Positions 2,904-63,215 of a DNA stretch of 64,000 nt are shown here, one piece after another (position 1 is the stretch's first letter; each line of letters opens with the position of its first letter). The notes below the pieces were generated by a model, which did not search any database, was not told the DNA's origin, and saw only the letters and a list, made by a program, of their open reading frames with translations. The translations under genes were made by a program, and so were the position numbers. This DNA is from Portulaca oleracea (taxonomy: Eukaryota; Streptophyta; Magnoliopsida; Caryophyllales; Portulacaceae), in assembly GCA_029582165.1 (NCBI GenBank), contig CM055870.1, positions 42,267,513 through 42,331,512 on the forward strand, written 5' to 3'.

Positions 2904-3096
2904 ACCTTCGTGTCTTAATTTGTTTATACTTGCTTCTTCCAATTGATTGTTGAGGCAGGTTGGGGAACTAGGTGCATGATTGGGGACTGGAATATTTTCT
3001 TTACTTTTGTTTTGTTTTGTCTTTCCGTTTTCACTTCTTTTTCTTTCCCCTTTTTCTTTTCTCGGGCTTTTGTGGGTATAGTTGCTATAAACCCTC

Positions 3097-3249
3097 ACGA
3101 GACCTATCTCGTCCACCCGGGCTGCCGGGGGATTTAAAGGGTTTGATGCATACGCTAAATGCATCTGCGATTCCTGCGAAAGTGAGTTAGGTTTTAGTTT
3201 TCTTTTTCTAGTCGTTTTCTTTGTTTTTAGTTTGCTCGGGGCGAGCAAA
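3097..3249 (+). other. Conserved row of predicted RNA hairpins before the 3' LTR
   Basis: Four inverted repeats in about 150 nt: ACGAG/CTCGT (3097-3112), CCCGG-GCTG-CCGGG (3116-3129), GATGCAT/ATGCATC with loop ACGCTAA (3145-3165), and TTTGCTCG-GGG-CGAGCAAA (3231-3249). Related copies lie at 3754-3905, 16991-17133 and, on the minus strand, 58130-58257. The stems are better conserved as pairs than as sequence (see findings). Function unknown. Confidence 0.7.
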
Positions 3250-3266
3250 CCCTTGCGTGGGAGTGG

Positions 3267-3560
3267 TGTTCGGTCTCGTTTTGAGCCGAATTCTTCTCTT
3301 TATTAGGGTGTTTTACATGTTCTAACCCCGTGTTTCATGTTAGTTATGAGATTTTTCTAGTTTTGTAGAAAATAAAAGAGTGACCCAAAATAGAGCCAAA
3401 ACGGAGCAAAACGCATCAAATAGAGGAAGAGGCAGAAGGATGGCTCGCCCGAGTCACATCCTGGCTCGCCCGAGTCAAGCAGCTTGAAGATTAGCAGACT
3501 TGCCGACCAAAGTTGAACCAAGAAGAAGTGAACCAAGAAGAACTTAAACAGAAGATTAGC
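3267..3560 (+). repeat. Partial LTR, family A (duplicated copy)
   Basis: Starts TGTTCGGTCTCG after a G-rich tract and matches the first part of the full LTR at 3925. It stops where the second copy of the 657-bp duplication begins. It carries two copies of GGCTCGCCCGAGTC, at 3442 and 3463. Confidence 0.85.
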
Positions 3561-3924
3561 ACCTTCGTGTCTTAATTTGTTTATACTTCCGTCTTCCAAT
3601 TGATTGTTGAGGCGGGTTGGCGAACTAGGTGGATGATTGGGGACGAGAATATTTTCTTTACTTTTGTTTTGTTTTGTCTTTCGGTTATCACTTCTTTTTC
3701 TTTCCCCTTTTTCTTCTCTCGGGCTTTTGTCGGTATAGTTGATATAAACCCTCACGAGACCTACATCGTCCACCCGGGCTCCCGGGGGGTTTAAAGGGCT
3801 TGATGCATACGCTAAATGCATCCGCGATTCCTCCGAAAGTGAGCTAGGGTTTTTAGTTTTTCTTTTTTGTCCTTTTCTTTGTTTTTAGTGTTCTCGGGGC
3901 GAGCAAACCCTTGTGTTGGAGTAG

Positions 3925-5212
3925 TGTTCGGTCTTGTTCCGAGCCGAGTTTCTTCTCTTTTATAGGGTATATTTGCTTGTTTTAACCCCGTGTTTCATGT
4001 TAGTTATGAGATTTTTCTAGTTTTGTAGGAAAATAAAAGAGTGACCCAAAATGGAGCCAAAACGGAGAAAAACTCATCAAATAGAGGAAGAGGCAAAAGG
4101 ATTGCTCGCCCGAGTCAAGCAGCTGGAAGATTAGCAGACTTGCCGACCAAAGTTGAACCAAGAAGAAGTGAAACAGAAGGTTGGCTCGCCCGAGCAACAT
4201 ACTGGCTCGGTCGAGCCATACCTCTGCAAAACCACCATGAGAATGTTGAAAAATTGGCTAAGGCAAGGAGAAACCAGAGGGCTGGCTCAGCCGAGCAAGG
4301 GCCCAGCTCGACCGAGCTTAGCACTTGAGCTGCCGAAGAGAAGCTGCTAAGAAGACATGGTGCGACTGTCCAGAACCCTGGCTCGCCCGAGCCAGGGGGT
4401 GGCTCGCCCGAGCCCCTCTAGTTTTCTGCTTTATGTTTAGATTTGAAATGCTGCGTTTTGTGTAACAGTTTGGGATAATTATAAATACTCTTAGCTGCGA
4501 TTTCATCCAGATAGTTTTAGCTTAAGTTTTAATTTGTATTAATCCAAGTTTTAATCAATTAGCCTACGTAGTTTAGGAGTAGAATTAGATTAGATTTAAT
4601 TGCTTTCTTTAATTGTTCTTCAAGTTTTCTTTGATTCTTCAAGCTTTCTTTGATTTCTAGCATTTGTTTTCAAACTTTCTCAAGCTTTCTCAATTCAAGC
4701 AAGTTTCCATTGAAGTTTTACAAGCTTTCTCTCTCTTCTTTCTCTCTCTAATCTCCATTGTTGACTTGATTTCAAAGCTTTCTAGGGTTAGCCACATCAA
4801 ATCCATCTTTTAGTGGGGAGGAGGGTCAAGGAATTCCATTCTACTTCCTAGTGAGAATTCGGGAGATCCTTGGTAATCCAATCAACAGTTTCTTGTTTGT
4901 TCCGGGGAAATTGCAAAGGTAGATTGAAGGTTAGAAGATTTTGGTCATCAAAGGTATAATTTCTAGTCTCTAATTTCATTGTTCATTCTAGATTTTCATT
5001 CCTTGCTTTAATTGTTTTATTTGATTTCATGCTTTTAATTGCTTTCTTTGGTTCATGCCTAGATTAGATTTAATTGCTTTATTTACATAATTTACCTCTT
5101 TTCCGCATTGAGAAAACCCCTTTACATAAACTGATTACCTCAATCAAGCCTAACACCCATCCCTGTGGACCGACAACCTTAACTTATAAAACCACAAAAA
5201 TTACAACCGAAT
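3925..5212 (+). repeat. LTR, Athila-like family A
   Basis: Begins TGTTCGGTC after a GTGTTGGAGTAG purine tract and ends near CAACCGAATA. Its last part contains ATCCCTGTGGACCGACAACC, matching the inner end of the minus-strand LTR at 56565 and, more loosely, 30581. It contains a palindrome cluster (4103-4414), a TATA box at 4480, CT-rich leader sequence at about 4600-4760, and no PBS after its end. The missing PBS argues that it is a 3' LTR rather than the 5' LTR of what follows. Confidence 0.8.
4103..4487 (+). promoter_or_regulatory. LTR-A promoter: paired palindromes 21 bp apart plus TATA box
   Basis: Words of the form GGCTCGCCCGAGCC start at 4103 (single), then in pairs 4183/4204, 4284/4305 and 4380/4401. 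The start-to-start distance within every pair is 21 bp. TATAAATA lies at 4480-4487, 66 bp after the last word. Position in U3 upstream of TATA suggests enhancer-like sites; this is inference from layout. Confidence 0.7.
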
Positions 5213-5221
5213 AGTTCTTTA

Positions 5222-7636: not shown

Positions 7637-8496
7637 TGTTAGGTTTTAGGTTATCTATTTTCTAAACAGATACAGATTAATTAGCGGAATATTCATAACT
7701 ATTATAAAACAATTAATCATAACAATTGCAGAGACTTTAGTAATTATACCTGATCACTAATTCCTGTTGATGAAGAGGTTGACCTTCCAGATTCCAACGC
7801 TGAAATCCTCAACTGAAAAGTCCACGCAACATTCCGGGAACCCTATTGCTAGATCGACCCAATCGAGACGAATCTTAATCTAAGATGTATGTAAGATTGT
7901 TTCGGGAAACAGAGAATGTTTCCTGAAACTAGAACTACAAACTAAAAGAGAGAGGAACTCAGGAAATCACCTTAGTATCTCTCTAAGAGTCTTAAGCAGT
8001 TGGTGTTGAATAGTCTCTCCCAGAGACCCCTTTATATAGTGTTTAGAAAACCTAGTGAAAGGATTCAAAACCCTAAAGGGCCGACTTAACGCAACAGCAG
8101 ATTTCTCAGGCCCAATACGGTCCGTGTTCAATCAACACGGTCCGTGTTGGTCTCCAGAAAAGTCCATTAAATCGGCCCATGGACACCACGGACCGTGGTG
8201 TGTGAACACGGACCGTATTGGGTCAACACGGTCCCTGTTGAACCCAATTCGGTCCGTGTTGGGCTGATTTCTCACAGAAATCAATTTCTAACTTTTCTAA
8301 ACGTGATACAATATCACTTAGGTTACATACATTGTTCCAGGGCACTGACTTGTGTGACCCAGTAGGACCAAATAATATAGTTGTAATTAAACATATTTAA
8401 TTAATAATTATAGAGGTCTCTAGCAAGACATATAATTACTATATTACTTTGGTTTAATCTTCGTGTATATCGAACATTGTCGGTTCATTCCCAACA
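7637..8496 (-). repeat. copia 3' LTR
   Basis: 860 bp. On the minus strand it starts TGTTGGGAATG and ends AACCTAACA. A TATA-like box TATATAAA is at 8031-8038. Six words with core ACGGTCCGT or its complement have cores at 8117, 8137, 8188, 8208, 8228 and 8249, upstream of that TATA. Confidence 0.95.
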
Positions 8497-8509
8497 ATCT
8501 CCCACTTGT
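8497..8509 (-). other. copia polypurine tract
   Basis: The minus strand reads AAGTGGGAGAT directly before the 3' LTR start, a typical Ty1/copia plus-strand priming tract. Confidence 0.85.
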
Positions 8510-9793
8510 CCCACAAGTGTTCGATTCCTTGAATTCCCTTGTCACTTACTGTCTCTAGTTCGGATAGGGTAAGCTAAAGTCATCCTTATGTAAGACCCGA
8601 ACGTTCCTCAATCTCCGAGTTTAGACTTTGAAAAAACAGACGATCAACTATTGATTCAACTTAGCTCGGCCAAGCATTTTCAGTCCAATCTCACCGAGTG
8701 GCCACCGAGACAACTGTCCCTAATAGGGATGACAATGCCATCTTGTTCAGACACACATTCTCACATGATCCAACTGTAACCCAGACACCGCCTTTATAGC
8801 CTACTGTTACGAAAGGCGTTTGACGCGCTCCAAAGTCACAGCAGACCATGTAGTCTATGTATTGAACTCAGGATTTAGGAAATTTGAGTAGTGAGAGCTC
8901 TTATGACATTCCTAACTTAAAGAGCTTCCACTGCGGGTCAGTTCGGTAGTTGTTCTCAACAATACCCATGTGATTGATTTATGATGTCATCACATCACCA
9001 TGATCACGAAGCTTGATCATCACCTCAATCCTACATGCTAATGGTGTTGATATTATCACTATTCCTACGTGATAATACAATTAGGAACCAGGTCGACTGT
9101 CGACCAAGACAAGCGTTATCAAGTTCACTAATAGGGTTTCAAAAATCGGACCTCATCCAATTTCCCATTTTGAATGCGCTAACCTTTTTGGACATTTACA
9201 AAACTCCAAACCACAATTGATGTAAATTTTGGAATCTTATTCTTAATGATGAATCAACAAGGTCATAATTCATGAACAATTCATGTAAATTTGACTTGTT
9301 AATATTCCGGAATATGTTTAATACCTATTGCCCATGCATGACTATCATGCTATAACTACAACAGGGGTTTAGTACAATATTTGCAATGAACCTCGCACAT
9401 ATACCATCTCACTAATGACCTTTCATAAAGGAAGATATTTCCGGAACACATGTTTGGATTCATAGTGAGCTTCCGTTCCTTTGCTTGAGTGATGGCTCCT
9501 ATCAACAAGGCTCCATTTCTCTCGCAAGGCTAGAAACATCACCCAGCTCTAAAAACGAACTTCGTAATCCTAACAGTTTCTGCCACAACTTCTAAAGTCA
9601 TGCCATACTTGTCTTATTTGTAGAATTAACCGCATGTCATGTTAGGAACTTCTTCTAGTTCACCTCAATACCACTCAAAATAGATCGGATTTATCTGACC
9701 TTTCAGATAATCCTATTTCTCTACATGAATGTAGCATCAATGCAACTCTTCATACTTAGCTTTTATCAACCACTTTAGACTTAGGACACATCC
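8510..9793 (-). other. copia internal region, 3' end
   Basis: Located where the RT end and RNase H would be. I see no intact ORF and did not find convincing RNase H motifs. The region is heavily mutated. Confidence 0.4.
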
Positions 9794-10290
9794 TTAGTTT
9801 TGCTTATACATATACAATGTATATGTTATGTTGGACATTGAACATCTCATGGCATACATTAATCTCATGCCTGAAGCATGAGTTATATGTCTCATCCTTC
9901 TTAGAACTTCTGATTGTTTTGAGATAATCAAATTCCGTAAGGATATGCCATGATGTTTGGAAATTAATCCATTCTCCAAGTAAGTTGAACTATTCAACAC
10001 CTAGTTAACTTTGATTCAAACAATCAAAAATAATTAATCTATCATTATAGTTCTAGTCTCCAAGAAAATTCTTAGCCCCACCAATCCTTCACTTTGAAAA
10101 AATATTTCCAGGTCAACCTGAGTAGAAGCAACATTGGAATATTCTTCTCAGTAGGCAGTATGTCAATCATATACAATATCAGAGAACGCATTGCTCCCAC
10201 TGAACTTCTTGTAAACACAATATTATCTTTGGCACTTCCCAGTTTGTCAAACCTTTTTGATATCCTTGTCAAGAAGGTCAATGATTCCAA
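9794..10290 (-). pseudogene. copia reverse transcriptase, C-terminal remnant
   Basis: Minus-strand frames give ILYMIDIL where copia RTs have the YVDD catalytic box, then KYFFKVKDWWG resembling the following F-mKDLG segment. After a frame change comes LMYAMRCSMSNITYTL, resembling the conserved AMLCTRPDI segment after the RT palm. The catalytic YVDD is replaced by YMID, so this copy cannot be active. Confidence 0.75.
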
Positions 10291-11239
10291 CTCCTAGAAG
10301 CTTCCTTAAGACCACAGATGGTCTCTTGAAGTTTACAAGTTATTCCAACAAAAGACCACTAATTTGTGTCAAGTACACACCTTTCTTCAAAATTTAATTT
10401 TGAAGTCAGTCTTGATGTCTATCTTAATGAACCCATGCTTTGCCTTAAAACCCTCCTATGCCTGATGACTCACACCTTTAGACAAATCAACCGAGATCTA
10501 AACTTGGTTGTATGCATGGAGTCTGTCTTAATTAGACCTTATGGAATCTTGACTTGCTAAAGCTTCTGTGTTGTAGGTAGAGTCATTACTTTCTAAAAGT
10601 AACATCTCACGCTCATCCATAGAAGATCGAGAACTATGTGGTTGACGGAGTTGTTTACCTGACCTTGCTTGGAGTAATGTTCATGACACCTCCTCCTCAA
10701 CGTTTTGAGGAACTTCAACTGCGTCAACCTTGTTCTTAATTTTCCTACCAATAGGAAAATTTGAACTAGGATCAAGTAGCGGAGTTTCAGGTGATGATTA
10801 TAGTGTTTTGTATCTCTCGAACTTCGGTAAGTTCAAAAACTCTCCCACTCTTTCTTTTAGAGAATAACATCTCTAAGAAGAAAGCATTTTGAGACACAAA
10901 TACTTTCCTCTACAACATTTTGTAGAAGTGATACTCCTTTCTTTTAGAAAACGGTTCAAGAAGCTCTCTTCTCCATATCATATATGATGTCTTCTCCAGT
11001 GCTTCAGATAATCTCAGTAATTAGAGCTATGGTTAACTGTGTATATCCCCAAAAGGTAATCGACAATGTTGACTCAACCATCATTGATCGCACTATATCT
11101 AATAAAGTGTGATTTCTCTTTTAGATATGTCATTGAGATGTCGTATTCCTAGAAGAGAGAGTTATGAAACAATTCCACATTTTCTGGAATGGTCAGTGAA
11201 ATCATGGCTCAAATACTTACCTCCTCAACCATGTTGAAG

Positions 11240-11520
11240 GGTTTTGATTTTCTTGCTAAGTTGGTTTGGTACTTCACTTTGAAACTCTTTGAACATTTCG
11301 AAGGATTTGGACTTGTGGCGTTTTAAGTAGATATACCCATATCTACTAAAATTGTCATTGAAAGTGATGAGAAAGTACCGTAAACCTTCTTCTAGCACTA
11401 GCGCTCATTGGCCCACATACATCAATATGTTTGCATCCTAATAAGTCATTAGCTTGTTCACCAATTCCAATAAGAGGTGATTTTAGTCATCTTACCCATC
11501 AGGCATGCTTTACAAACATT
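11240..11520 (-). pseudogene. copia GAG-pre-integrase and integrase N-terminus, remnant
   Basis: The minus strand reads VCKACLMGKMTKI (about 11461-11517), the hallmark C-x-x-C-L-x-G-K-M of the region before copia integrase. It is followed, after frame breaks, by DVCGPMS and then DNFSRYGYIYLKRHKSKSFE (about 11300-11362), the integrase core. Stops and indels separate the blocks. A second, more diverged copy of the same region lies at about 11.8-12.0 kb. Confidence 0.75.
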
Positions 11521-14500
11521 AAACTTTTCAAAGTTTATGTTTTCCAAAGTCCTGCACTATGCAGTTTTCTAAATGCATTTCTGATTAATATGACATAAGC
11601 TTATAGTGCTAGAATTGTGTTTCATTTGAGTCATTTGTTCAAACTCGTGGCTCAACCATTAGCATCCTTTCGATCGTATCTAGGTGCTCTCATTGTTTCG
11701 CCAAAACTACTTTATTTTGGAAATCTTTAAACTATTTTGACATTCCAGCTTCAGATGAATCTCATAGACATGAATCACCATGTGTTATTTTATTCATCTT
11801 TGAAGATTTGAAGTAATTCATCCCTTGTACTTGTGCTCAATTGGACTACATACATCCATATGCATGAGTGTTTGTTGGCACATTCGCCTTTTCTTGTAAA
11901 AGGTACAGTCATGCTTTGCAGGCATCATATGTTTCAAAGTCTTATCATTCAAAAGTCTATCACTGTGACGCTTCTGAATGCGCTCTGATTTGCATGACTT
12001 AATAGATAGTTACAAGTTTTATGTTTGAACATGAGTTATTCCTTTTAAACCTTTTGGTTTCGATGTGTTGTGTGTGTTTATCCGAGATCCTCTCTCTCTC
12101 TAATTGAGAGCTCGAAATCAAATTTCTACTTATAATGAGAACATAGAATCACCTATAAATTTCTCTTATAATTCTTGAGGAAATGGATAAACAAGCAACT
12201 CTTCATGAGAAGCTACAACTAATTGCATATTCCCTTTTGTAGGCTGACTCTCATCCTTCAAAGCACATCTACTTTGCTGTATATCCTGCAAATTTGCATA
12301 AATGCGAGTTTCACATCCGATATCTAATACTCAAAGTGGGTTTAATAAAGGTAGTGTGTATCATATACGCATTTGCCTAGAATTGAAATCATATCTCAAG
12401 TCTTCCTTATAGTTATTCACGCTCCGAGTGTCATATATACATGATCTGGTTGTTAACCGGTTGCTGTCATTGGTTGGGTTTGTACAACTGTTTGTCCTTA
12501 CCTTTCCTTTGACTTCTTGTCTTTGATAGATTTCTTAAATCTTATTTTTCCTTTCACTAAAAGACTATCTTTGGTCGCCAATCTTTTGGCTAAAGGGGAT
12601 ATGAGGTTTCTCATGTTTTAAAATAGTCAAATTATTTAAGAAGATGAGTGCCAACAATTGGCTCTTATCTAGCTCAACCGAGACTATCTGGTTATTGGTT
12701 TCATATTTATAAACTCTAAGTAGTTCGATGAACTTGGTTATGAGTTGGTAATATTAAAATCTTTCCTCTAATCTTCAAACATTTTGAAGTTAAAGGAATA
12801 CTATGACATTACATGTATTCATTTGGCTTGATTGACCTCTAAATATTGATGCCTAGCTCAATGTTATATCAAAGACATGTTCCTTTTATTCGCCTCCAAG
12901 ACAATCTTGTGATGGTGATGTCATTTGGAGTAATTGTTTTCTCTTTCTCAAGGAGAAAACAATATTTTATTAGTGGTGGATGTTTGAGTGAAAAAGACAT
13001 AAATAATTGTACAAGACAAAATTGTTTCATTTTAGTTATTATTCATCAAAAGAAATTAAACTAATTTTAACTTCAAATCAAAACACTTTAACAACTCTCA
13101 TTTAGTGTTTTAATTTACAAAGACCCACAAGACTCATGGGCTCAAGTGGACTTTGACCCAACAAAACTCGATCCCATGTTATCTTTGGTGGATCATCTTA
13201 TGATCGATCATTCAAAACGACTCTTGGCAAGAAATTTGTATCGAATACAATATTTCTCTTCCTCTGCTCTTGGCCCAAAACCATTTTGATAGCCAATTTG
13301 AATTGACCTAGCTCCCACCCTACTTATTAATGATGGACAAATAATTCTCTTTGGCTTTCTTTATTTATCCATCTAAGTGGTGTTTCGATAGGTTGAACAA
13401 TAATTCAATTTAGAGAGTATGTTTTATTATCCTAAGCATGCGATTTAGGTTAACTCTTTCGAAAAGCATAAAAGGCATAATAAAACATGCAATAACGAAT
13501 TTAAACCATAAATAAAACCCCTAGTATGGCCACCTAGACTTAATCAAACTAATTTTTAACTAAGTCTTGATAGTCTTCAAGAAAATCTTCTTGGGTTTTG
13601 CAACTTCATTGGATGGGTTCCCACTCGAATCATCACCTCCATTGCTGTTGGGCTCCTACTCAACTTGATGTCTCCAATTACAACAAATTTACGATTTAGA
13701 CCTCACAATTGAGTCCTTACATGAATTAAAATAAACTTAACTGAAATTAAAATTTAAAATTAATTCAATGACGGCACGCAGGCCGTATTTCACCCAACCC
13801 GATACGCACACCGGTAAAACCGACTATCTATGGCCATACTAGAAGCACATGCAAACAGGTAATATTGCAATAATTATATCAGATATAACACATGCTTAAA
13901 TAACAAATTATAAAGGCATATATATAATTGCAATATAACACATAAGGAAATAAATACTAAATAAAATTTCCTAAAAGGTTTGCATGATTAATATAATAAA
14001 CAAATTCCAAATTTTATCTTGTTTACCTAAACAGATTTTGGATTTTATACCTATACACACAAAATACTCTATTTTCCTAAAATCAAGAAATCTAAATGAT
14101 ATTATATCTTTTAAAGATATTATAATTTTCCGAAACTTTACAAAATAATAGATTTTATGCCCATTATCTGATTTAGTAGAAATAGGATTTAATAATTAAT
14201 TTCTAAAATTAGTTACAAACCCTAAAGCACACGAATTCACCAAAACAGCTGGCAACACGGTCCGTGTTGGATCAACACGGTTCGTGTTGCTTCCCAGTGT
14301 AGGTTAATTTCGTGAATGAAAAACATAAATAAAATTATCATAACTTATCGAATTTAAAGATTTCATATCACAGTGTTATCTAAAAACCCAATATGAATAT
14401 TTTCCAGAATTTTAATAATTTTCAAAAGATTGTAAAATTTTAGGGAATTAAACCTTTTAATTCTCCGTTCAAGAGGAAAATAAATAATAATAGTCCGCTA

Positions 14501-15489
14501 AGTTTAAAAATAAAACTTTATAATTTTCCCATACAGTAGGTTCACTTAATATGCTACTGTAAAAATTTCAGATTTTCAGCAAATTTCGAAAATTAGAATA
14601 AAATTCATAAAAGTAAACAATTAGACTTTTCTGTTAATATGACAATTAAAGGAAAATTAGTAAACGATTTCGAAATTCACGAAAATTTTATCCATAACAG
14701 AATGGTTACCCAGTAACCTACTGTAAAATGTTCAGAAAATTTGCAAAGTTCTATAAATATACAAAATTCAGGGAAGCAACAAATTTATTTCTCTTAGATC
14801 TGAAAATCTAAATTAAAAACTATAATTTGACCGAATAAATTTACGGAAAATTTTTTCCCTAAAAGTATGGTTACCCAGTAACCTACTGTAAAAATTTCAG
14901 AAGTTTTACAAATTTCTACAAATTTATAAAATTCAGAGAATTAAACGTATTTTAATTCACTTCAGATATGAAAACTCGAGTAAAAATCCATTTTAAATGG
15001 GAAAAATATACAAACATTATGGAAAGTCCATAACACTTCCAGAAACCTCCAGTAAAAATTTCAGAAATTTTCGAATTTGTTTGATATTTTATTTCGATTT
15101 TTCATATTTACCGTAAATAAACTAAATAAGAAAATAATTCTACAAAACCCTATTTTGCGAATTTTAACCTATTTCATGTGTTTCCTAATGTTTAACAATA
15201 TTAAAAAAGATTGTTTCTAAAACATTCAAAAATAAATCAAGTTCATGCTATATTTAACGATTAAACAAACATAAAATCGATTAATTAAAGGCAATAAGAA
15301 ACAAATAATAACAAAGCATGAAATTTTACAATAAAATCTCATATTTATTATCATGAACATTAAAGATTAAAAATTTCATAAAGATTCAAAATTTTAGGCA
15401 TAAATCTACTCTAGCATATTCATAATATAATTCAACTATTGACAAAATTACTTATGAATACAAGTACAATACTTTAGCATGCAATTGGT
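11521..15489 (-). other. copia internal region, 5' half (gag side), decayed
   Basis: AT-rich and full of stops on the minus strand, with no intact Gag. A duplicate pre-integrase-like block occurs at 11.8-12.0 kb. At 14254-14285 there is a pair of the LTR words (AACACGGTCCGTGTT and AACACGGTTCGTGTT, cores 14257 and 14277, 20 bp apart), about 1.2 kb from the 5' LTR. At 14700-15060 a phrase with GGTTACCCAGTAACCTACTG recurs several times with drift. Confidence 0.5.
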
Positions 15490-15502
15490 GGCTCTGATAC
15501 CA
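15490..15502 (-). other. copia primer binding site (initiator tRNA-Met type)
   Basis: The minus strand reads TGGTATCAGAGCC one nucleotide after the 5' LTR end, the standard complement of plant initiator tRNA-Met. Confidence 0.95.
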
Positions 15503-15503
15503 C

Positions 15504-16362
15504 TGTTAGGTTTTAGTTTATCTATTTCTTAAACAAATACAGATTAATTGACGGAATATTCATAACTATTATAAAACAATTAATCATAACAATTGTAGAT
15601 GCTTTAGTAATTATACCTGATCGCTAATTCCTGCTGATGAAGAGGTTGAGCTTCCAGATCCCAACGCTGAAATCCTCTACTGAAAAGTCCACGCAGCATT
15701 CCGGGAACCCGATTGCTAGATCAACCCGATCAAGACGAATCTCAATCTAAGATGTATGTAAGATTGTTTCGGGAAATAGAGAATGTTTCCTGAAACTAGA
15801 ACTGCAAACTAAAAGAGAGAAGAACTCAGGAAATCACCATGATATCTCTCTAAGAGTCTTAGGCAGTTGGTGTTGAATAATCTCTCCTAGAGACCCCTTT
15901 ATATAGTGTTTAGAAAACCTAGGGAAAGGGTTCAAAACCCTAAAGGGCCGACTTAACGCAACGGCGGATTTCTCAGGCCCAACACGGTCCGTGTTGAATC
16001 AACACGGTCCGTGTTGGTCTCCAGAAAGTCCATTAACTCGGCCCATGAACACCACGGACCGTCGTATCTCAACACGGACTGTGTTGGGTCAACACGATCC
16101 GTGTTGAACCCAATTCGGTCCGTGTTGGGCTGATTTCTCACATAAATCAATTTCCAACTTTTCTAAACGTGATACAATGTCACTTAGGTTACATACATTG
16201 TTCCAGGGCACTGACTTGTGTAACGCAGTAGGACCAAATAATATAGTTGTAATTAAACATATTTAATTACTAATTATAGAGGTCTCTAGCAAGATATATA
16301 ATTACTATATTACTTTGGTTTAATCTCCGTGTATATCGAACATTGTCGGGACATTTCCAACA
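15504..16362 (-). repeat. copia 5' LTR
   Basis: 859 bp, the partner of 7637-8496, with TG/CA ends on the minus strand. It keeps the same word array with cores at 15984, 16004, 16054, 16074, 16094 and 16115 and the same TATA-like box. Confidence 0.95.
15898..16121 (-). promoter_or_regulatory. copia LTR promoter: TATA box and phased ACGGTCCGT array
   Basis: TATATAAA (minus strand) at 15898-15905, with six inverted-repeat words upstream at 15981-16121. Core spacings are 20, 50, 20, 20 and 21 bp. The most intact word is AACACGGTCCGTGTT. The nearest word is 76 bp from the TATA box. Confidence 0.7.
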
Positions 16363-16367: not shown

Positions 16368-17149
16368 CCCCTTAACCCTCCTCCTATATCGCTTTGCGAC
16401 GGAGAGGCGAATGGAAAAGACCGTGTTGGGAGGGTATAGCCCATTTATGGGTCGTCCAATTCCCGAAAGTAAGGCTAATACTGACTTTTGAAATGAAGAA
16501 AAAAAAGAGAAAAAGAAAAAGCAATTTTGTTGGTAAAACCAACCCAACAAGAGAAAAAGAAAAAGTTTTTGCTTCTAAAAAGAGTGGGGCCTCTCCTTGC
16601 ATCACCTACGGCCCTCACCAAGCCAAGGGCGACCAAATGCGAGAGAGGGCAACGCTTCTCTTGGTTGTTTCGCTGTTTTAGGACACGAGTCTTTAGAGTC
16701 TTTTGGTTCCAGTTAGAACCCACTTGCACATATTTGCACATAGGGTTTCGCTTGGTATAAGGTGTAGGGAGTTGAAAATCTTCAAGATTGACCTTTATCT
16801 GATATAGGTGTCTGTGAGATGCTCCTAACGGTTGCTTTTGGAGGCTTAATAATGTTTTCTTAGTTTAGGTTGCGAGATCTTTTGAATCAAAACCTTTGCT
16901 TTTCTTTCCTTTTGTTTTCTTCAGTTTTGTTTTCACTTTTCCTCTCTCCCTTTTCTTTGGCTTTTGTGGGCACAGCCGCTACAAACCCTCACGAGTCCAT
17001 CTCGTCCACCCGGGCTGCCGGGGGGTTCAAAGGGCTAGGTGCATACGCTAAATGCATCCGTTTCTCTCCCACAACAGAGGAGTTAGTGTTAGTTTAGTTA
17101 GTTTTTGTCTTGTTTTGCTCGAGACGAGCAAAAGTTTAAGTGTGGGGGG
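16368..17149 (+). other. 3' UTR of Athila-like element 2, downstream part, with hairpins and polypurine tract
   Basis: No supportable ORF; A-rich 16495-16575 gives only low-complexity frames. Hairpins: ACGAG-TCCAT-CTCGT (16991-17005), CCCGG-GCTG-CCGGG (17009-17022), GGTGCAT/ATGCATCC (17038-17059), TTTTGCTCG-AGA-CGAGCAAAA (17113-17133). The tract AAGTGTGGGGGG at 17138-17149 directly precedes the LTR. Confidence 0.7.
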
Positions 17150-18716
17150 TGTTTAGGCCCAATTTTGTGTCTAAATACCGCCTAAATCCTTAGGCTTTTG
17201 ACTTATTTCGTAGCTTAATTTAATAACTTTTAATGCGTTTTTGGTAATTTTTTAGATTTCGGAGTTTTTACTCAAAACGTGGTAAAAAGGGCCATTTTGC
17301 ACCTATTTTGGGGATCCCGAGATTTCCAGAGTCTTGGTCGAGTCGAAGTCAAAGGAATGCGGAAAGGCCGGGCATGTCAAGGCACCCAGAAGGCCTTTTG
17401 AAGCCGAGCTGGACCGTGGCCACGGTCATGATGACCGTAGCCACGGTGGGATCAAGCTACGCCAAAGGGAAGAAGAAATGGGAGTCGAGCAAGACCGTGC
17501 CCACGGTCAAGTTGACCGTAGCCACGGTGGGTTCATGACCTGTCTAAGTGTAGAATTGGCCGAGCAAGATCGTGGCCACGGTCTTGGGAGACCATAGCCA
17601 CGACGGTGCAAAGGAGCGAAAAGTTATCTGCCCTAATCGCCAGACCGTACCCACGGTCCAGGGGCACCGTGCCCATGGTGCTGCGAAGAGAAGAGAGAAA
17701 TCGCCTGCACTATGCAGGACCGTGTACAGTCGCCGTGCCTCATAAACCGTGCCACGGCCTCATAGACCGCGTTTTTACATTTAGCAAAGTGACGAGTTTT
17801 GAGTAACAAACTTGGATTTTATATATTGGTTTTAGGTCTTTTAGCTGGATATCATCTATTATCCTATCTTAGAAAACACTTTATCATACTTTCATCATAT
17901 TTAAGCTTTCAATTAGAGTGATTAGTGAGAGTTTATACTTAGATTATTGTTCTTGCATTGGATTCTATTGGATTCCTATTTGAAGTTTGAAGATTATTCT
18001 TATCTTTGGAGTATTGGAGCTTTATTATTCTGGAGTATTTCCTTTGGCATCGAAATCAATGAGCATTTGCATTTCTTAACCTTTCTCTCTTTAGTTCATT
18101 ATTTACTTGTCAATCTCGATCTGTTTTGTTATTATAATTGTTGGTGTTTGTTGATTGTTTTTTATTGTTAATTTGATTATCCTTTTAAGCATGAATGAAG
18201 TTGTTGATGTTATTAGCATGTTAGTTAGGATGTTTAGAGGCTAGAACCCTAATGGGTTAGGGAGATATTAGGGAGGTGAATGGTATATTAGGATTAGGTT
18301 AGCAATTTTAGGAGTAATTAGTAGTGGAATCAACTTCCCACTCCTATCCTTCCTTTAAGTAGGATGTGTTTGGGGTACGAAAGACCTCGAATACATCCAA
18401 CACTAGAGTTGGAACGTTGGAATTGAGATAGTTAGTATTCTATTCGCGAAAGCAAATAGAAGCTAACAAGAGAATCCCGTTCTTTTAACCCCCCGGGTCT
18501 GTCGAAGGATTTTGGGGAAGTTAATCCGGATTATCCTTGAAAAGGGAAATCTGGTGGGTTTATCTTAACGGAATTCTCATTTGATTCTACTATCTTATTG
18601 CCTCCTAGTTGTGAAACCTTTGTCCAAATTGCCATTTGCATCCCGAAGTCTCCCGACACCCATTGTTCCCCTTTTTGACCGAACCTTAGTATGTTTGTGC
18701 TGTTTTTACTCTAAAC
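17150..18716 (+). repeat. 3' LTR, Athila-like family B
   Basis: Starts TGTTTAGGCCC after the polypurine tract. It contains the GACCGTGGCCACGGTC array (17412-17731), TATATATT at 17820 and an AT-rich transcribed part. The end is uncertain; CTCTAAACA at 18716 is the best TG...CA candidate (about 1.57 kb), but no second LTR is present to confirm it. Confidence 0.65.
17412..17827 (+). promoter_or_regulatory. LTR-B promoter: four paired palindromes and TATA box
   Basis: Pairs start at 17412/17433, 17493/17514, 17568/17590 and 17643/17664. The first member of each pair is GACCGTGGCCACGGTC or a one- to two-base variant; the first is a perfect 16-bp palindrome. Within-pair spacing is 21, 21, 22, 21 bp; pair-to-pair spacing is 81, 75, 75 bp. 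TATATATT follows at 17820. Confidence 0.75.
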
Positions 18717-18766
18717 ATCTCATCATTTCATGACCGTAAACCCTACCTAGAGTCAAGTAGTCATAG

Positions 18767-23296: not shown

Positions 23297-24876
23297 TGTA
23301 GGACTCGGAAAAATTCCTGTTTGGGGAAATTGTTTTCGGATGCGCTACTTAAGTGATCGGGAGCCGACTAAGGTTGCTTAATCCTTAAATAAAGATATTT
23401 TTATTTTATGAAATTCATTTTCGGGGGTAACTTTATTTATTTTACAAATTCTTTTATATTATTAAAATATACGAAATTACACTAAAATAATTTACTAATA
23501 AATTTAGTACCGGCCCATTATTCCATCCGGGCCCAAGAAGTAGCAAAGGGACCACCATGAGGCCCTAAAACCCGTGCGGGTTTTATGGCTCCATGGACTA
23601 GGCCCTGTGCAACTTCGACCCAGGGAAAATGGGATGAAGATTAATAAAACCCGTGTGGGTTTTGTTGATCTTTTGGCCCATTTTCTCTTGGGTAGCCTTA
23701 GATTAATAAAAAGTGGTACTAAAATATTCGTAAGGATTTTAGTGTAATTATCGTTTATTTTAAATAACTAAAAGAATTTATAAAAAGTGATAAGAATCGC
23801 CAGCTGATTTAAAGAAAATCGACAAACCATGAAAACAATAAAAATAACTCCGGTCTACAAAACCCGATTCTAAGTCCGGGGGTAAGGTTACGAATTCGAG
23901 AATTATAAGAACTCTCGAATTCGCCTGTTAGAAACCAAACTCTACTAAAATCGACATTAAAATGAAATACAACGGGGAGAAGTTTAATAGATTTCGCAAA
24001 ATTATATTTTTAATCATGCAATATAAAAGAACAAGGTTTTAATTTACAAAATATGCACACGTAATGGAAATGAAATACGAATTACATGATTAAATAATAC
24101 AATGATAAGAAAATGAGAGCGAACCTCTTGGATTTATAAGCCCGAATGCGCCGTCCGAAGATCTTGACCATGCCTTGACTTGGTGGATGGAAAGGGCGAG
24201 TATCAAGGTGATGAAAAGTGATATATGGGTAATGATTTGATGAGAATTTAGTAGAGTGAAGGTAGTGGTAATATGAGAGTTTAAGAGAGTGTAGGTAGGA
24301 TTATGATGATAGTTGGTGAGAATAGGAGTATAATGGTGATGGTTTGTGAGAGTTGTTGATGATTAGTGAGGGTGAAATGAGGGGTATTTATAGGTGAATG
24401 AGGTGGTGTTTAGGAGGGAAATGGAGGGAAAATCATGGGGGACACATCCCCATGATCATGCCATGCAATCACGTAGCACCCAAGTCAAGGGCAAAGGTCA
24501 AAGCACATGGGGCTAATATCAAGGGAGGGTGATCAAGCTGATTTTGGCACCAGATTCTAGAAATAAACCCCGCGCGGGTTTTATAGTTCCCGCACACGGA
24601 TCGTTGACGTGGAGCAGAACGACGCGTTTTGGCCAGAAGATAACCGCGCGGGTATTGAAGTCTGGGCTGGGGCGTGCCTTGGGCCTGTCCTGGTTCTGGG
24701 CCGCTTTCTTGATTAAAACCCGTGCGGGTTTTGTCGCTGGAACTGGGTCGTTTTCTTTTTTGTTGTTTTGCTTGTATTGCTCATTGAACCAATGATCCGT
24801 TTTGGTATCAGCCCAAATGCTTTATTCACACTTTTGATAAGTCGGGATTATATCGGTGAAAATCCCGGTGTCCACA
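23297..24876 (-). repeat. Ogre 5' LTR
   Basis: 1580 bp. On the minus strand it begins TGTGGACACCGGG and ends GAGTCCTACA. TATAAATA (minus) is at 24385-24392. Palindromic words of type AAAACCCGTGCGGGTTTT occur at 23567, 23646, 24565 and 24715, with weaker ones at 24588 and 24643. Confidence 0.85.
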
Positions 24877-52192: not shown

Positions 52193-52328
52193 ACGAAATC
52201 AAAATAGTAGCATAAGTTGAAGATATTATTCATTGAGACGTCGGCAGTCCCAATTTCCTTGCAGCAGTTGCCCTCTCTGGTTTCCCACTCCTAAATTCTC
52301 GAGGATTTCGCAATTGCTAACTACAGCC

Positions 52329-52940
52329 ATGGCGGCAGGTGCATCTCCATTCGCACCAATCCCGACGGCATCCACCAGCACGAACCTCGACTACATCTCC
52401 CGAGCCAAGCAGACCCTCTACGGAGCCCTCGCTACACGGCGGCCATGGAAGCAGATCTTCGACTACCACTCCATCTCTCTCCCTCACAACTTCTCCGACG
52501 CACTTTCTCGCCTCAAAACCAACCTCGCATACTTCCGAGTTAACTTCGCCATGATAATCCTCGTCATCCTCTTCCTCTCACTTCTATGGCACCCAATCTC
52601 TCTCATCGTCTTCATAGTCATGATGACTGCCTGGCTATTCCTCTTCTTCCTCCGTGACGAACCGATTCTTCTCTTCGGGAGGACAATCGATGATCGGATT
52701 GTCCTCGGCGTGCTTTCGATCCTCACCGTCGTTTTCCTACTCCTCACCGGAGCCACCTTGAATATAGTGATTTCTCTGTTGATCGGCGTCGGAATCGTCG
52801 TCGTTTATTCGGTTTTCCGGCGATCGGATGATTTGTTCATGGATGAAGAGGCCGCTGCAGCCGGCGGTCTGCTCGCCGGTCGGGCCGGGTTTGGGCCCGT
52901 TTCATACAATATGCCGACTTCGAGTTCTATTTCTGGCTAG
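52329..52940 (+). CDS. PRA1F: PRA1 family protein, F-type
   Basis: 203 codons, no intron. Prenylated Rab acceptor proteins are small membrane proteins of the ER/Golgi that bind prenylated Rab GTPases. I chose ATG 52329 (GCCATGGCGG context); the frame is open further upstream but without another ATG. Landmarks: LDYISRAKQTLYGALATRRP near residue 25, then DALSRLKTNLAYFRVNFA, a first hydrophobic hairpin (about 80-112, ILVILFLSLLWHPISLIVF), FLRDEP, and a second hairpin (about 128-165), then RRSDDLFMDEEAAA, a Ser-rich tail and a stop. Length and phrases fit plant PRA1.F proteins of 180-200 residues. Base composition is GC-richer than its surroundings, as expected for a gene in TE-rich DNA. Confidence 0.93.
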   Translation: MAAGASPFAPIPTASTSTNLDYISRAKQTLYGALATRRPWKQIFDYHSISLPHNFSDALSRLKTNLAYFRVNFAMIILVILFLSLLWHPISLIVFIVMMTAWLFLFFLRDEPILLFGRTIDDRIVLGVLSILTVVFLLLTGATLNIVISLLIGVGIVVVYSVFRRSDDLFMDEEAAAAGGLLAGRAGFGPVSYNMPTSSSISG

Positions 52941-56564: not shown

Positions 56565-58113
56565 TGTTCGGTTGTGGTAATTAGGGGTTTCCTAAGTAAG
56601 GGTTGTCGTACCTCAGGGATGGTGTGTTAGGTTTTTAGAAAATTGGTTTGGAAGGGTTTTCAATATGCAGGAAGTAGTAAATAATTAAACTAAACTAATT
56701 ATGAATTGTAAAACAAGAACAAGAAACTAACAAGAAATCAAAAGCATAATCAAGAAAGCAATTAAAAACACTCAGGAACGAAGAATGTGAAAATTGAATT
56801 TAATAGTGAATTTAAGGAAACAAAATTATACCTAGAATGCATGATGCTAATCTTCAATCTTGAAATCTTGAATCTTTCATCACGAATCTTCTCCCGAACA
56901 AACAAGAAAAAACATGATTTGGATTACTAAGACTGCTCGAATCCTTACCTGAAGGGAGAATTCAAGGAACCTTAATCCTCCTCTTCACTAAAAATTGGAT
57001 TTTTCTGGAACTAATACTAATGAATTTGAAAGTCAAAAGACAAGAATTGAAAGAAAACAAGAACTTAAAGAAAAGAATTGCATTAATCTAAAAAGGTTGA
57101 ATTACAATTGAAAGCTGGGGAAAACTCAAGAAAACTCCATTCTAAAACCTAGGTGAAACTAAAGCTAAGTAAAACTAATGAATCATCATACTAATGATAA
57201 TTGTTTAATGTATATATAACAAAGTAATAGGAAAGGGAAATAAATTAGACTAAAACCCCTAGCATTCGCACAGTCCGCACCGGCCACCACGGCCCAGTCC
57301 AGTGTACCTCGGACCGTGGCCCTTCCCACGGCCAGGCCGTGATATATGTTGCCTTAGTTTCCCCTTTTCTCTTGTTTTCTTTGCTTTCTTGTTGTGCTGG
57401 GCGGATGGATGACTGAACCGCATGAAATCAATGGCCTCACTTCTTCATGATTGGGCCGAGTCAAATGAAGGAGCATGATAACCTTTAATTTCCTCCACTT
57501 CCTTCTCTTCTCATTGGACGAATGAAGCATGGCCCAAAAGCACTTATTTTTCCTCCCTTTTCTTCTTCATGATTGAACCGACTGATTGTGTTTTAACGGC
57601 CCACTTCTCTCTTTTGATTGGACCAAATTAAGGATACCCCAAATCAATTAATTACCTAACCTTTCTTCTTCTTGTTTGATTAGGCCATTGAAATTAAACT
57701 AACGACCCATTTCTCCTTTTGGTAATTGGGCCGAGAGAAATGTTGAATGAATGAATTGATGGACCAAACCAAATTGTTGCTGCTGCTGTTTTACTCGCGC
57801 AAAACACGACCTAGCTAGGACCGTGGCAACCACCACGGTCAGACCGTGGTGTGCACTGCCAGGTCGCTCCTTGCTCCTTGCTCCTTTCCGTCCCAAAATT
57901 GCACTATGGTTTAGGTTTGACATGTAGAGGCCCATGGTGTCTTTACTCTTGCCTGAGTTGGTATGTTTTCTTCTCTTTTGTCTCCCTTTCCATTCTAACT
58001 CTTGATATTCTTATAAAAACACAAAATTATCAAAACTAATTCATAAATAGAGGACAAAAGCAAGAAAAATCCCTTATAAAAGGTATCAATTTGGCTCGAA
58101 TTGAGACCAAACA
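56565..58113 (-). repeat. 3' LTR of Athila-like element 3
   Basis: 1549 bp. The minus-strand start TGTTTGGTCTC follows GTGTGGGAGTGT; the end ACAACCGAACA is at 56565. It shares the ATCCCTGAGGTACGACAACC type inner end with LTR A. TATATATA at 57211-57218. Words: CACGGCCAGGCCGTG at 57327-57341 and a 21-bp perfect palindrome at 57831-57851 (arms CACCACGGTC around A). Confidence 0.85.
57211..57851 (-). promoter_or_regulatory. LTR-3 promoter: two palindrome clusters and TATA box
   Basis: GGACC- or GGCCAGG-centred words with centres at about 57292, 57313 and 57334, and at 57820 and 57841: spacing about 21, 21 and 21 bp. TATATATA (57211-57218) is about 75 bp below the nearest centre on the minus strand. 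Confidence 0.6.
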
Positions 58114-60345
58114 ACACTCCCACACAAGGGTTTGCTCGCCCCGAGCAAACTAAAACAAAGAAAGAAAATCAACTAAACTCTCCGAACTCACTTTTGTAGG
58201 AATCACGGTTGCATTTAGCATATGCAACAAACCCTTTAAACCCCTTGGCAGCCCAAGTGGACGAGGAAGGTTTCATGAGGGTTTATAGCAACTATACCCA
58301 CAAAAGCCAAAGAAAAAGAAAAGATAAAGTAGACTCAGATTAAAAAGGAAAAGACTCAAGAAAGAAAAAGGAAAAAGAAGAAATAAAATAAATAAAAAGG
58401 ATTAGCATTAGGGTTACAAATACAACGAAACACCCCCTCAAGCTAACCAATCAAAGACATCAATCCATCAAGCAAACACCAAGATCAATATGGAAGAGAA
58501 CAAAATCAATGTACAATAGATAGAATGAAGTTTTAGAAATCAAGTAGAGAGAACAAGTGGTTTAGATGCGAAAAATTGGCAACAAACTTAAGATGAATGC
58601 AAATATGCGCGGTTGGTTATGGACGTAGGCCAGTCAAAAGAGCAAACCTCACTTTAGGATAAAAATTGAACGCTCAAACACTCAAATTTGAATGTGTATA
58701 TGGGTTTTTCTCATACTCAGACCAAAAGAAACAACCTACCATAGGCTTGGTAAGAATCTCGCTCTCCACTGTTAGTATGCAAATACACAAGTGACAATCA
58801 AGAGGACGTTTTAGGGTTGTAATGAGGCTTAGGTTAGGGGAAAGGAGTGGTAATATTTGGGTATGAGGAGTTAAAGAGCCATGCTTGGATTGATTTTCAA
58901 TAAAAAAATTGCTCTCAATCTCACCTTCTTGCTTAATTATGCAAGGAACTCACTCTCCTTGATCAATATCGAACATCTCAACTAGCTTTACAACCAGGTC
59001 AAAGATTTTCAGAACTTTCAAATAAATCTCCCTAATCACCCCTTTTCTTTTGAGCTTTTTTTTCATTTTTTTTTTCATTTTATTCTATTTTTCTACTTCT
59101 CTTTTTTTTTTGTGGGTGATCAAGGGAGAAGAAAAACACAAAATATAGCTTTGACCTCAATATATGTTAAAATAACTTCATAACCAATTGGCTAACTCAT
59201 AATAATTGGGAAATATAATGTGTCCCAATTAAATTAAAAATCAAAACTATACCCCATTAACTCAATTCCTATTCACAGCAACACCGAACCAATTTTCCCT
59301 CACGAAATAATGAATTCTCACATATCCAAGCAAGGCAAAGGGTAGGAATTAATAAAGGTCATGGCATGTATTGTCAGGGTTTCATCACAAAAAGAAAGGT
59401 AATCAAAGGCTAGGCGGGGCTAAAGAACGGTAATAATATTATTAGGGAGGCTGTTTGACTATGTAGTTCAATTAATATAGAAAAAGGATTCCTCAATCAT
59501 ATTGTGACAATATGCAATGCAAAGATGCAGTCTCAAGCAAGATGCAAAACAAGTTCTATAGGTGCAACTAGTGGTGGAGTCACTCAGGAAATAAAAGAAT
59601 TGATAAAAGTGATCAATTCATACTTTTAGGCTATGTGGACTCAGGGGATAGGGCTCCTTCAACTAAACCTAGCCCAAAGATTTGCGGTATGCATATTTAC
59701 ACTTACTAAGATACTCAAAGCAGTTAAACACACCATTCATTACTTGACTCAAAATCAGAAGATTTGCAAATTCAGTTTCAAAAACTTTTGAGTTCTCAAC
59801 CAAACTTTTCAAGGTGAAGCAAGACAAACTGAAAGTCTAATCGGTTTACAAATCATCACTGAAAGTGTTCCGGACAGACTAAACCTAAAAATTTTAAAAA
59901 TTTTGCCAAAAACTAGTAAGGCACTTTGCCACCCCACTCCCACACAAAAACTCTACAATGTCCTCATTGTGAATAAGGCGACACCACACTAAAGAAAAAA
60001 ACAAACAAAAAAAAGGAAAAGAAACTCAAGCCGGAATGCATGCCTCCCCCACTCCCACACAAAAAGGCTAACAATGTCCTCATTGTAATCATAAATAGAG
60101 ATAAGCAAGCACACAAAGGGAAAGAAAAATAAACACACCAAAAGAAAATAAAATAAAAGAGGAAAAAGAAGGTCAACTCACTAACTGAAATAAGAAGACA
60201 AGGAAAGATATTACGTGGATGGTTTCTTGCCAAAAGTTTCAATCCTTCTCTCTTGACAAAGCAAAGTTAGGAGAAGCACTCAAGAAAAATCAAGAAAAGA
60301 AGGGTCAGATATACAATATATACAAGAATCTCAACTTACCTTCCT
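58114..60345 (-). other. 3' UTR of Athila-like element 3, with hairpin row and duplicated ACAATGAGGACATTGT motif
   Basis: No supportable ORF. The inverted repeat ACAATGTCCTCATTGT occurs at 59953-59968 and 60071-60086, each with a CCCCACTCCCACAC tract (minus GTGTGGGAGTGGGG) nearby. Hairpins at 58130-58150 (GTTTGCTCG/CGAGCAAAC), 58208-58228 (GTTGCAT/ATGCAAC) and 58244-58257 (CTTGG/CCAAG). Confidence 0.7.
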
Positions 60346-61634: not shown

Positions 61635-62984
61635 CTAAGGTTCCACTCCCACACTAAAGAGTTGCTCATCAGGAAAATGAGCAGCAATAGGGGTGGTATT
61701 CACAGTATCAAGCACAATCCTAGATAAGTGGTCAGCTACAGGATTCTCAGCTCCTTTCCTGTCTTTAATCTCACAATCAAATTCTTGCAATAACAACACC
61801 CACCTAACTAGCCTAGGTTTGGAATCTTTCTTTTCCATTAAATACCTAATAGTTGAATCGTCAGTATAAACTATGACTTTAGCACCAAGCAAGTAAGGTC
61901 TAAATTTCTCAAAGGCATAAACAACAGCTAGAAATTCTTTTTCAGTCACAGTGTAATTTAATTGAGCATCATTCAAGTTGTGGCTAGCATAATGAATAAC
62001 AACAGGTTTCTTATCAATTCTCTGTCCTAGCACAACACCTACAGCATAATCAGATGCATCACACATAATCTCAAAAGGTTCTCCCCAGATGGGAGGTTTG
62101 AGAACAGGAGGGGAAATAAGGGCATCTTTAAGTTGATTAAAGGCCCTCATACAATCATCAGAAAAAGGAAAAGGTACCTCCTTAGCTAACAATGAAGACA
62201 AAGACATAGGAATTTTACTGAAGTCTTTTATGAATCGCCGGTAAAAATCGGTGTGTCCTAATAATGAACGGACTTCCTTAACAGAAGTTGGAGGGGATAA
62301 ATTCTTAACTAAGTCAATTTTGGCCTTATATACCTCAATCCCATCCTTAGAAATCACATGCCCCAAGACAATCCCCTTTTTAACCATAAAGTGACACTTT
62401 TCCCAGTTTAGTGTCAAATTCTTTTCCTGACATCGACTCAGCACACGATTCAGGTTAGCTAGGCAAGCATCAAAAGAGGTACCAAACACTGGAAAATCAT
62501 CCATAAAAATTTCCACACATTCCTCCACTAAGTCAGAAAATATTGAAATCATACACCTCTAGAAGGTTGCAGGGGCATTACACAAACTAAAAGGTATCCT
62601 TTGAAAAGCAAAGGTGCCAAAAGAACAAGTGAATGTGGTTTTTTCCTTGTCACAAGGGGCAATAGAGACTTGGGTATAACCAGAATAACCATCTAGAAAA
62701 CAGTAATAATCATGCCCTGCAAGTTTTTCAAGCATTTGATCCATGAAAGGGAGTGGAAAGTGGTCCTTCCTTGTGGCTTTGTTTAGTTTTCTATAATCAA
62801 TGCAGACTCGCCAACCAGAAGGGACACGATTAGGAACTAACTCTCCCTGTTCATTCTCAACTACAGTTAAACCCGCCTTCTTAGGGACTACATGGATTGG
62901 ACTCACCAACTTGCTATCAGAGATTGGGTAGATAATATCATGGTCTAGCGACTTAAGGATCTCTTTCTTAACTACCTCCTTCAT
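61635..62984 (-). pseudogene. Athila-like reverse transcriptase and RNase H, one internal stop
   Basis: Two open frames in register, split by a single TAG at 62559-62561 where related RTs have a Gln codon (CAG). RT: YPISDSKLVSPIHVVPKK, WRVCIDYRKLNKATRKDHFP, catalytic MDD in [11 protein letters not shown]. RNase H begins at [13 protein letters not shown] (first Asp), with [16 protein letters not shown] (Glu) and [13 protein letters not shown] (Asp), and ends PVADHLSRI. Stop at 61635. Nearly complete coding capacity. Confidence 0.93.
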
Positions 62985-63215
62985 CTGTGGGTTTAATCTC
63001 CTAAGGGGGTCTCTATGGGCAGCATTTTCATCTCCTAGGAAGATTTGATGCTGAATAATGGAAGGGCTAATCCCCTTAATGTCACCTAATGTCCACCCTA
63101 AGGCTCCCTTGTTCTTTCTAAGAACTTCAATTACTTGGTTTTCCTGGTCCCTACCTAAGTTAGAAGCAATGATTACTAGGTAGGTCTCACTTGGGCCAAG
63201 AAAAGCATATTTCAG
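62985..63215 (-). pseudogene. Linker between protease and RT
   Basis: Minus-strand sequence between the protease frame and RT reads in part as the usual RT-approach region with FSWPK-like and NHCF-like words; a stop at 63216-63218 and a later frame change interrupt it. Confidence 0.5.

Follow-up and report, generated by a model that had tools for sequence, protein, structure and literature searches.

Candidate enhancer arrays of paired palindromes in the U3 regions of Portulaca oleracea LTR retrotransposons

In LTR-B, a retrotransposon LTR of Portulaca oleracea, a 16-bp palindrome occurs as four pairs, about 150-400 bp before the presumed TATA box TATATATT, and palindrome arrays also lie upstream of the presumed TATA boxes of two further elements, A and D. 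On balance, and with some reserve, we favour the reading that these arrays are U3 enhancers, in which duplication has multiplied the dyad sites that a dimeric host factor would bind. The window, that is the whole stretch of DNA analysed, comprises 64,000 nt (assembly GCA_029582165.1, contig CM055870.1, positions 42,267,513-42,331,512, forward strand), and all positions given here are window coordinates. The sequence evidence comes from one copy each of elements B, C and D and from the two LTRs of element A, and TATA boxes were chosen among one to five matches per LTR. The features of LTR-B are as follows.

17115..17131, + strand: inverted repeat TTGCTCG-AGA-CGAGCAA, just 5' of the polypurine tract (PPT) of LTR-B
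17131..17149, + strand: PPT AAAGTTTAAGTGTGGGGGG, immediately 5' of LTR-B
17150..18717, + strand: LTR-B, a 3' LTR of 1568 bp that starts with TGTTTAG and ends with CTAAACA; its right end (near 18717) was placed by the inverted termini only
17412..17448, + strand: pair 1, sites at 17412 (perfect palindrome) and 17433, step 21 bp
17493..17529, + strand: pair 2, sites at 17493 and 17514, step 21 bp
17568..17608, + strand: pair 3, sites at 17568 and 17590, step 22 bp
17643..17681, + strand: pair 4, sites at 17643 and 17665, step 22 bp
17820..17827, + strand: presumed TATA box, TATATATT

The pre-PPT region of LTR-B resembles those of LTR-C and LTR-D, and the pol of element C is ordered protease, RT-RNase H, integrase, which is the Ty3/gypsy order. 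LTR-B was therefore placed with a Ty3/gypsy-type element, as its 3' LTR, an assignment that draws on the pol of C, that of B itself not being in evidence. Element B is perhaps of the Athila lineage. Athila elements are non-chromovirus Ty3/gypsy elements that lack a second RNase H and possess an env-like region. A scan of three pol ORFs of element C, which did not include the ORF at 62562-63215, matched neither a chromodomain nor RVT_3. The GC-rich inverted repeat TTGCTCG..CGAGCAA has counterparts at 3232-3248 and 58132-58148, and is kept across elements B, C and D.

Direct reading of the sequence bore out the arrangement given in a preliminary description of this DNA, namely four LTR-B pairs with 21-22 bp within pairs and 75-81 bp between them (81, 75 and 75 bp), all upstream of the TATA box at 17820. 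That description had spoken of a perfect 16-bp palindrome with close variants. Eight such sites were indeed present, but only the one at 17412 is perfect, the other seven pairing at 5-7 of 8 positions; site 17590 reads as a site with a 3-bp insertion (GACCATAGCC-ACG-ACGGTG), and the final site lies in register at 17665 (CACCGTGCCCATGGTG), with an 18-bp palindrome at 17664-17681. The pattern GACCGTGGCCACGGTC matched 6/8 sites with 0-2 mismatches each (three were allowed), and its matches in 100 shuffles of the window averaged 0.02, with a largest count of 1. The four central bases of the LTR-B site are variable in the left two and invariably CC in the right two. The LTR-B array was not among the rows listed by Tandem Repeats Finder (score 50).

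Element A is nested upstream of LTR-B; its insertion duplicated 5 bp of target (GGATA), and its two LTRs are 93% alike. From its PBS and PPT motifs we take it to be of Ty1/copia type, and no stop-to-stop frame of at least 80 aa was found between its LTRs (element 7637-16362). It is a non-autonomous or decayed Ty1/copia-type element beside a Ty3/gypsy element. The LTRs other than LTR-B are listed below.

7637..8496, - strand: LTR-A1, 3' LTR of the Ty1/copia-type element; presumed TATA box at 8038
8113, 8133, 8184, 8204, 8224 and 8245, - strand: palindromes of LTR-A1, steps 20, 51, 20, 20 and 21 bp
15504..16362, - strand: LTR-A2, 5' LTR of element A, adjoining TGGTATCAGAGCC; presumed TATA box at 15905
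15980, 16000, 16050, 16070, 16090 and 16111, - strand: palindromes of LTR-A2, steps 20, 50, 20, 20 and 21 bp
3267..5213, + strand: LTR-D, its start tandemly duplicated; presumed TATA box at 4480
3441, 3462, 4102, 4182, 4203, 4283, 4304, 4379 and 4400, + strand: sites of LTR-D, four pairs, all with a step of 21 bp, and one single site
56565..58113, - strand: LTR-C, a weak case; presumed TATA box near 57218
23297..24876, - strand: LTR-E, a weak case; presumed TATA box TATAAATA at 24392, one of five matches

Each LTR of element A holds one pair and one run of four sites, with short steps of 20, 20, 20 and 21 bp. Two more copies of the same palindrome, 20 bp apart, were seen at 14253-14289, inside element A and ~1.2 kb from its 5' LTR. 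The first pair of LTR-D lies ~1 kb above the presumed TATA box. LTR-C has CACGG at 57848/57825 and at 57341/57318, a step of 23 bp twice, in groups 507 bp apart, of which the first is ~620 bp above the presumed TATA box and includes CGGTCTGACCG at 57836. Palindromes of the type CCCG-YG-CGGG recur ~75 bp apart in LTR-E, where no pairs at 20-23 bp were found; they flank the presumed TATA box on both sides, the downstream ones being at 23567 and 23646. The end of LTR-E adjoins TGGCGACTCC, a PBS known from Tat/Ogre-type elements.

The preliminary description had further proposed that the same register holds across families while the word changes. Palindrome arrays upstream of TATA do recur in A, B and D, but the spacing is not constant: steps are 20-21 bp in A, 21-22 bp in B and 21 bp in D, with a weak 23 bp in C and none in E. 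The step is thus retained inside each family but differs from one family to the next. A constant two-turn rule was rejected, given steps of 20-23 bp and their absence in E. The word, too, changes less than had been claimed, as A, B and C have CACGG/CCGTG in common. This motif occurs 69 times in the window, and 41/69 occurrences fall in six U3 regions that make up 6.5% of its length (both LTRs of A counted). A, B and C may use one half-site, CACGG.

The preliminary description had also suggested comparing LTRs with dinucleotide-shuffled sequence, and this check was run on the LTRs of the window. Repeats of CG-containing 6-mers at lags of 19-23 numbered 8 in U3-B, whereas 200 dinucleotide shuffles averaged 0.22 and never gave more than 3. 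The other counts were 15 in A1, 16 in A2, 11 in D (for which U3 was 3925-4479 only), 3 in C and 0 in E, with shuffle means of 0.04-0.10 in these five and a maximum of 2 in C. The count exceeded all 200 shuffles in the U3 of A1, A2, B and D. Across the whole 64 kb, CG-containing 6-mer pairs numbered 32 at lag 20 and 35 at lag 21, compared with 0-10 at each other lag from 16 to 30. At lags 20-21, places with at least two pairs were confined to A1, A2, B, D and the copy inside element A (14254), which together hold 59/67 such pairs; the remaining 8 were not located. GC-rich words without CG gave no comparable lag peak in the whole window.

Palindromes themselves were likewise in excess. A generic palindrome finder returned 7 in U3-B (shuffle mean 1.16, maximum 4), and the count was above all 200 shuffles in the U3 of A1, A2, B and D; it was not above shuffles in the U3 of C (2, maximum 5) or E (3, maximum 4). 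Random placement of the found sites gave mixed results, the finder's non-overlap rule being too coarse for overlapping palindromes: spacing stood out from random placement in A2 (p 0.013) and in D (p 0.010), but not in A1 (p 0.26) or in B, where one step fell in range (p 0.30); in C and E none did. Judged by repeated 8-mers, 3/33 repeat places outside the U3 regions had a lag of 20-23 and 10/33 a lag of 17-30. By this criterion A and D qualify, and B and C, with one 8-mer each, do not. The chance of the lag agreement between A and D is ~0.008, rising to 0.09 once lags of 17-30 are presupposed, both figures being rough and post hoc. Since B and C fail the 8-mer criterion, the A-D agreement in register is suggestive only.

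The palindromes of LTR-B are 69-97% identical between units (six comparisons), whereas identity outside them is 40-57%. Shuffling the linkers of units 1 and 2 gave 45% identity (sd 4), a value that the linkers of units 1-2 and of units 2-3 still surpass somewhat. In-pair spacers appear unrelated in LTR-B; in LTR-D, 2/4 resemble each other. The gap in identity between palindromes and linkers, together with the unlike in-pair spacers, indicates that the sites of LTR-B were kept while the rest drifted.

From this layout we infer binding of a host factor, activation of transcription and any cooperativity. The arrays would be rows of dyad-symmetric sites, each suited to a dimeric host DNA-binding factor and mostly placed 70-400 bp above TATA. 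One site would have been duplicated into pairs or short runs, and pairs in turn into longer units, after which the sites may have stayed alike as the intervening sequence drifted. A site of 16-17 bp and a spacer of 3-6 bp would together make up the step, which comes to about two turns of the helix and was perhaps fixed when the site was duplicated, then tolerated or favoured.

We hold a neutral origin by tandem duplication to be the less probable account. Palindromes promote template slippage, and a 16-17-bp palindrome with a short spacer would on its own give 20-23 bp, with neither spacing nor symmetry under selection. Duplication itself is plain in LTR-D, where 2904-4179 is an 88% tandem duplication of the pre-PPT region and the start of the LTR, and one copy has a pair where its partner has a lone site, a difference of exactly 21 bp (one unit); the remaining gaps in their alignment measure 1-3 bp. 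This difference implies that units come and go, which argues against a story of pure selection. Units 1 and 2 of LTR-B are also recognisable duplicates (78%), and 11/37 Tandem Repeats Finder rows have periods of 20-23, two of them the A arrays and the other nine lying at seven places, none of which is a palindrome array. Neutral duplication accounts less well for LTR-B, with its unlike in-pair spacers, its kept palindromes and a unit remainder near chance, or for the rarity of 8-mer lags of 20-23 outside the U3 regions. Nor was any unit gained or lost between the LTRs of element A: unit number is unchanged since insertion, with one gap column in 161 bp, and substitutions are similar in the array (0.075 per bp) and in the rest (0.063 per bp). 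Slippage, which the preliminary description had named as the main alternative, is not the whole story but may have had a part, given the clean 21-bp unit difference in LTR-D. For LTR-B, recent slippage as the whole explanation was rejected, the sites being kept and the rest near chance level.

Symmetry gave a further point in favour of neutral duplication, there being no excess of symmetry-keeping double changes. Compensated cells numbered 1 in B, 1 in D and 2 in A, and paired cells did not exceed permuted arms in B (p 0.58), D (p 0.31) or A (p 0.13), the sites of A and D having been picked by their likeness to a palindromic word. With compensated cells so few and permuted arms not exceeded, strict maintenance of symmetry is unsupported.

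The palindromes, or a pair folding on itself, might instead act as RNA or cruciform hairpins, forming a transcript stem for small-RNA silencing, packaging or strand transfer. Predicted RNA folding energies are indeed below those of dinucleotide shuffles (LTR-B z -4.15, 0/200; LTR-D z -4.03, 0/100; LTR-A2 z -7.12, 0/200), and a small-RNA excess at palindrome clusters of maize Sireviruses is described in the available sections of PMC10760457, citing Bousios 2016. However, strong folding is expected of any palindrome array, a hairpin does not require a step of 20-23 bp, and covariation was absent. In broken pairs on the transcript strand G-U was not favoured over A-C (8 vs 7, hand tally), so we see no sign of selection on RNA structure and consider hairpins improbable.

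It is more improbable still that the arrays are simply CpG-rich cassettes that attract or escape DNA methylation, their palindromic form being incidental. CpG observed/expected is raised in most clusters (A1 0.98, A2 1.06, B 0.90, first group of C 0.99, E 1.22) relative to the window (0.61), yet the D cluster stands at 0.62, and this account predicts neither repeated 16-bp words nor constant steps.

Within the enhancer reading that we favour, a stronger version can be formulated. Ty1/copia and Ty3/gypsy elements would have converged on one enhancer grammar, with dyads for a dimeric host factor, partly built on CACGG, set about two turns apart above TATA and their spacing selected for cooperative binding; we think this rather unlikely. 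A rule that holds across families and puts the sites on the same face of the DNA may exist but is unproven. If the spacing were a functional rule, there would be a promoter grammar shared across the two main LTR-retrotransposon superfamilies, and a single family of host factors, exploited time and again by plant retrotransposons, would be indicated. Even without cooperativity, the present arrays extend the palindrome layout of Sireviruses to Ty3/gypsy elements.

Sequences from other genomes were also searched. In viral contigs a loose 14-base pattern matched at least 120 loci, and the 80 of them that were listed, each with the match at one place, were taken as chance; three stricter patterns gave no match there, and two protein scans found no relative. 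The spurious ORF that runs through the array had no match at E <= 1 among 194 candidates. Two contigs in bacterial assemblies (L121 and L122, Solirubrobacter and Geminicoccus), 99.6% alike, carry a plant-like Ty3/gypsy pol and are probably contamination. Neither showed a GC-rich palindrome at the threshold used or a long terminal repeat, the ends matching each other over 66 bp only, at 74%. The window also holds the following gene.

52221-52937: PRA1 gene, its named relatives led by Caryophyllales (Amaranthus, Chenopodium, Bienertia, Spinacia), with Nymphaea as second-best match

The preliminary description knew of no account of such a rule, but Sireviruses are known to have palindromes above TATA whose word changes between elements. 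According to the available sections of Bousios et al. 2010 (PMC2829016), 13 Sireviruses carry palindromic repeated motifs (RM), at least eight copies each, within CpG islands upstream of TATA; most have a CGG-CCG core, the words differ among elements, and no common site for one factor was found. A, B and D share with them LTR palindromic words repeated upstream of TATA, the word differing by element. Sireviruses are, in contrast, Ty1/copia elements, and RM are Sirevirus-specific within that paper's Ty1/copia set, whereas B, C and D are of Ty3/gypsy type; a spacing of 20-23 bp is not given in those sections (PMC2829016).

Set against the RM of Sireviruses, LTR-B has 8 palindromes, LTR-D 9 and element A 14 (6 per LTR, 2 internal), and C and E, with 2-5, stay below eight copies. 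In A, B and D the sites lie upstream of the presumed TATA boxes, as do those in the U3 of C and of E. The CGG-CCG core appears as CGGWCCG in A and in one C site (CGGTCTGACCG), and is missing from most D sites; LTR-B has CCG..CGG inside the 16-mer and CGG..CCG between the sites of a pair. The LTR-C site at 57836 is identical to the Osr10 word and, read on the opposite strand, to the Osr8 word; both words also match at 20254, outside these LTRs, with one mismatch. In a search of the window that had no shuffle control, 10/12 RM words tried had no match within one mismatch. The host element of LTR-B was not assigned to the Sireviruses, which are Ty1/copia, as it has its pre-PPT region in common with element C, whose pol is of Ty3/gypsy order. 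Sireviruses have an inverted repeat around the PPT, of which the pre-PPT inverted repeat of B, C and D is reminiscent (PMC2829016, available sections). Some Sireviruses likewise have extra internal motif copies, as element A has at 14253-14289. Element A did not show the several PPT copies that Sireviruses have upstream of the 3' LTR, the 1.2 kb preceding LTR-A1 holding a single PPT-like match.

In the accessible part of PMC10760457, the LTR of a maize Sirevirus resembles the present arrays in its cis-region palindrome clusters and strong predicted RNA structure. It differs in being Ty1/copia, in its word (CACCGGAC-N3-GTCCGGTG) and in having small-RNA data (PMC10760457). In ONSEN, as far as the sections at hand describe it, duplication of the symmetric proto-element nTTCnnGAAn led to a strong heat-shock-factor site (PMC5059998). 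ONSEN/COPIA78 is thus like the arrays in that a symmetric site was duplicated in an LTR for a host factor, and unlike them in its known factor (HSF trimers), its other word and its one composite site; its LTR has no CG sites, whereas the present arrays are CG-rich (PMC5059998, PMC3907296, both in part). The open-access papers searched gave nothing useful on LOB-domain sites and none for Tnt1 BII boxes. In the U3 of Tnt1, repeated short boxes upstream of TATA act as enhancers, with words and spacing other than those here. Symmetry of Tnt1 box I is mentioned in the available sections of PMC2829016. A register of 20-23 bp, or such arrays in Ty3/gypsy LTRs, was not reported in the open-access papers searched. 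Palindromes above TATA were already known from Sireviruses (PMC2829016, in part), and what is new is the presence of palindrome arrays in Ty3/gypsy LTRs and the 20-22-bp register.
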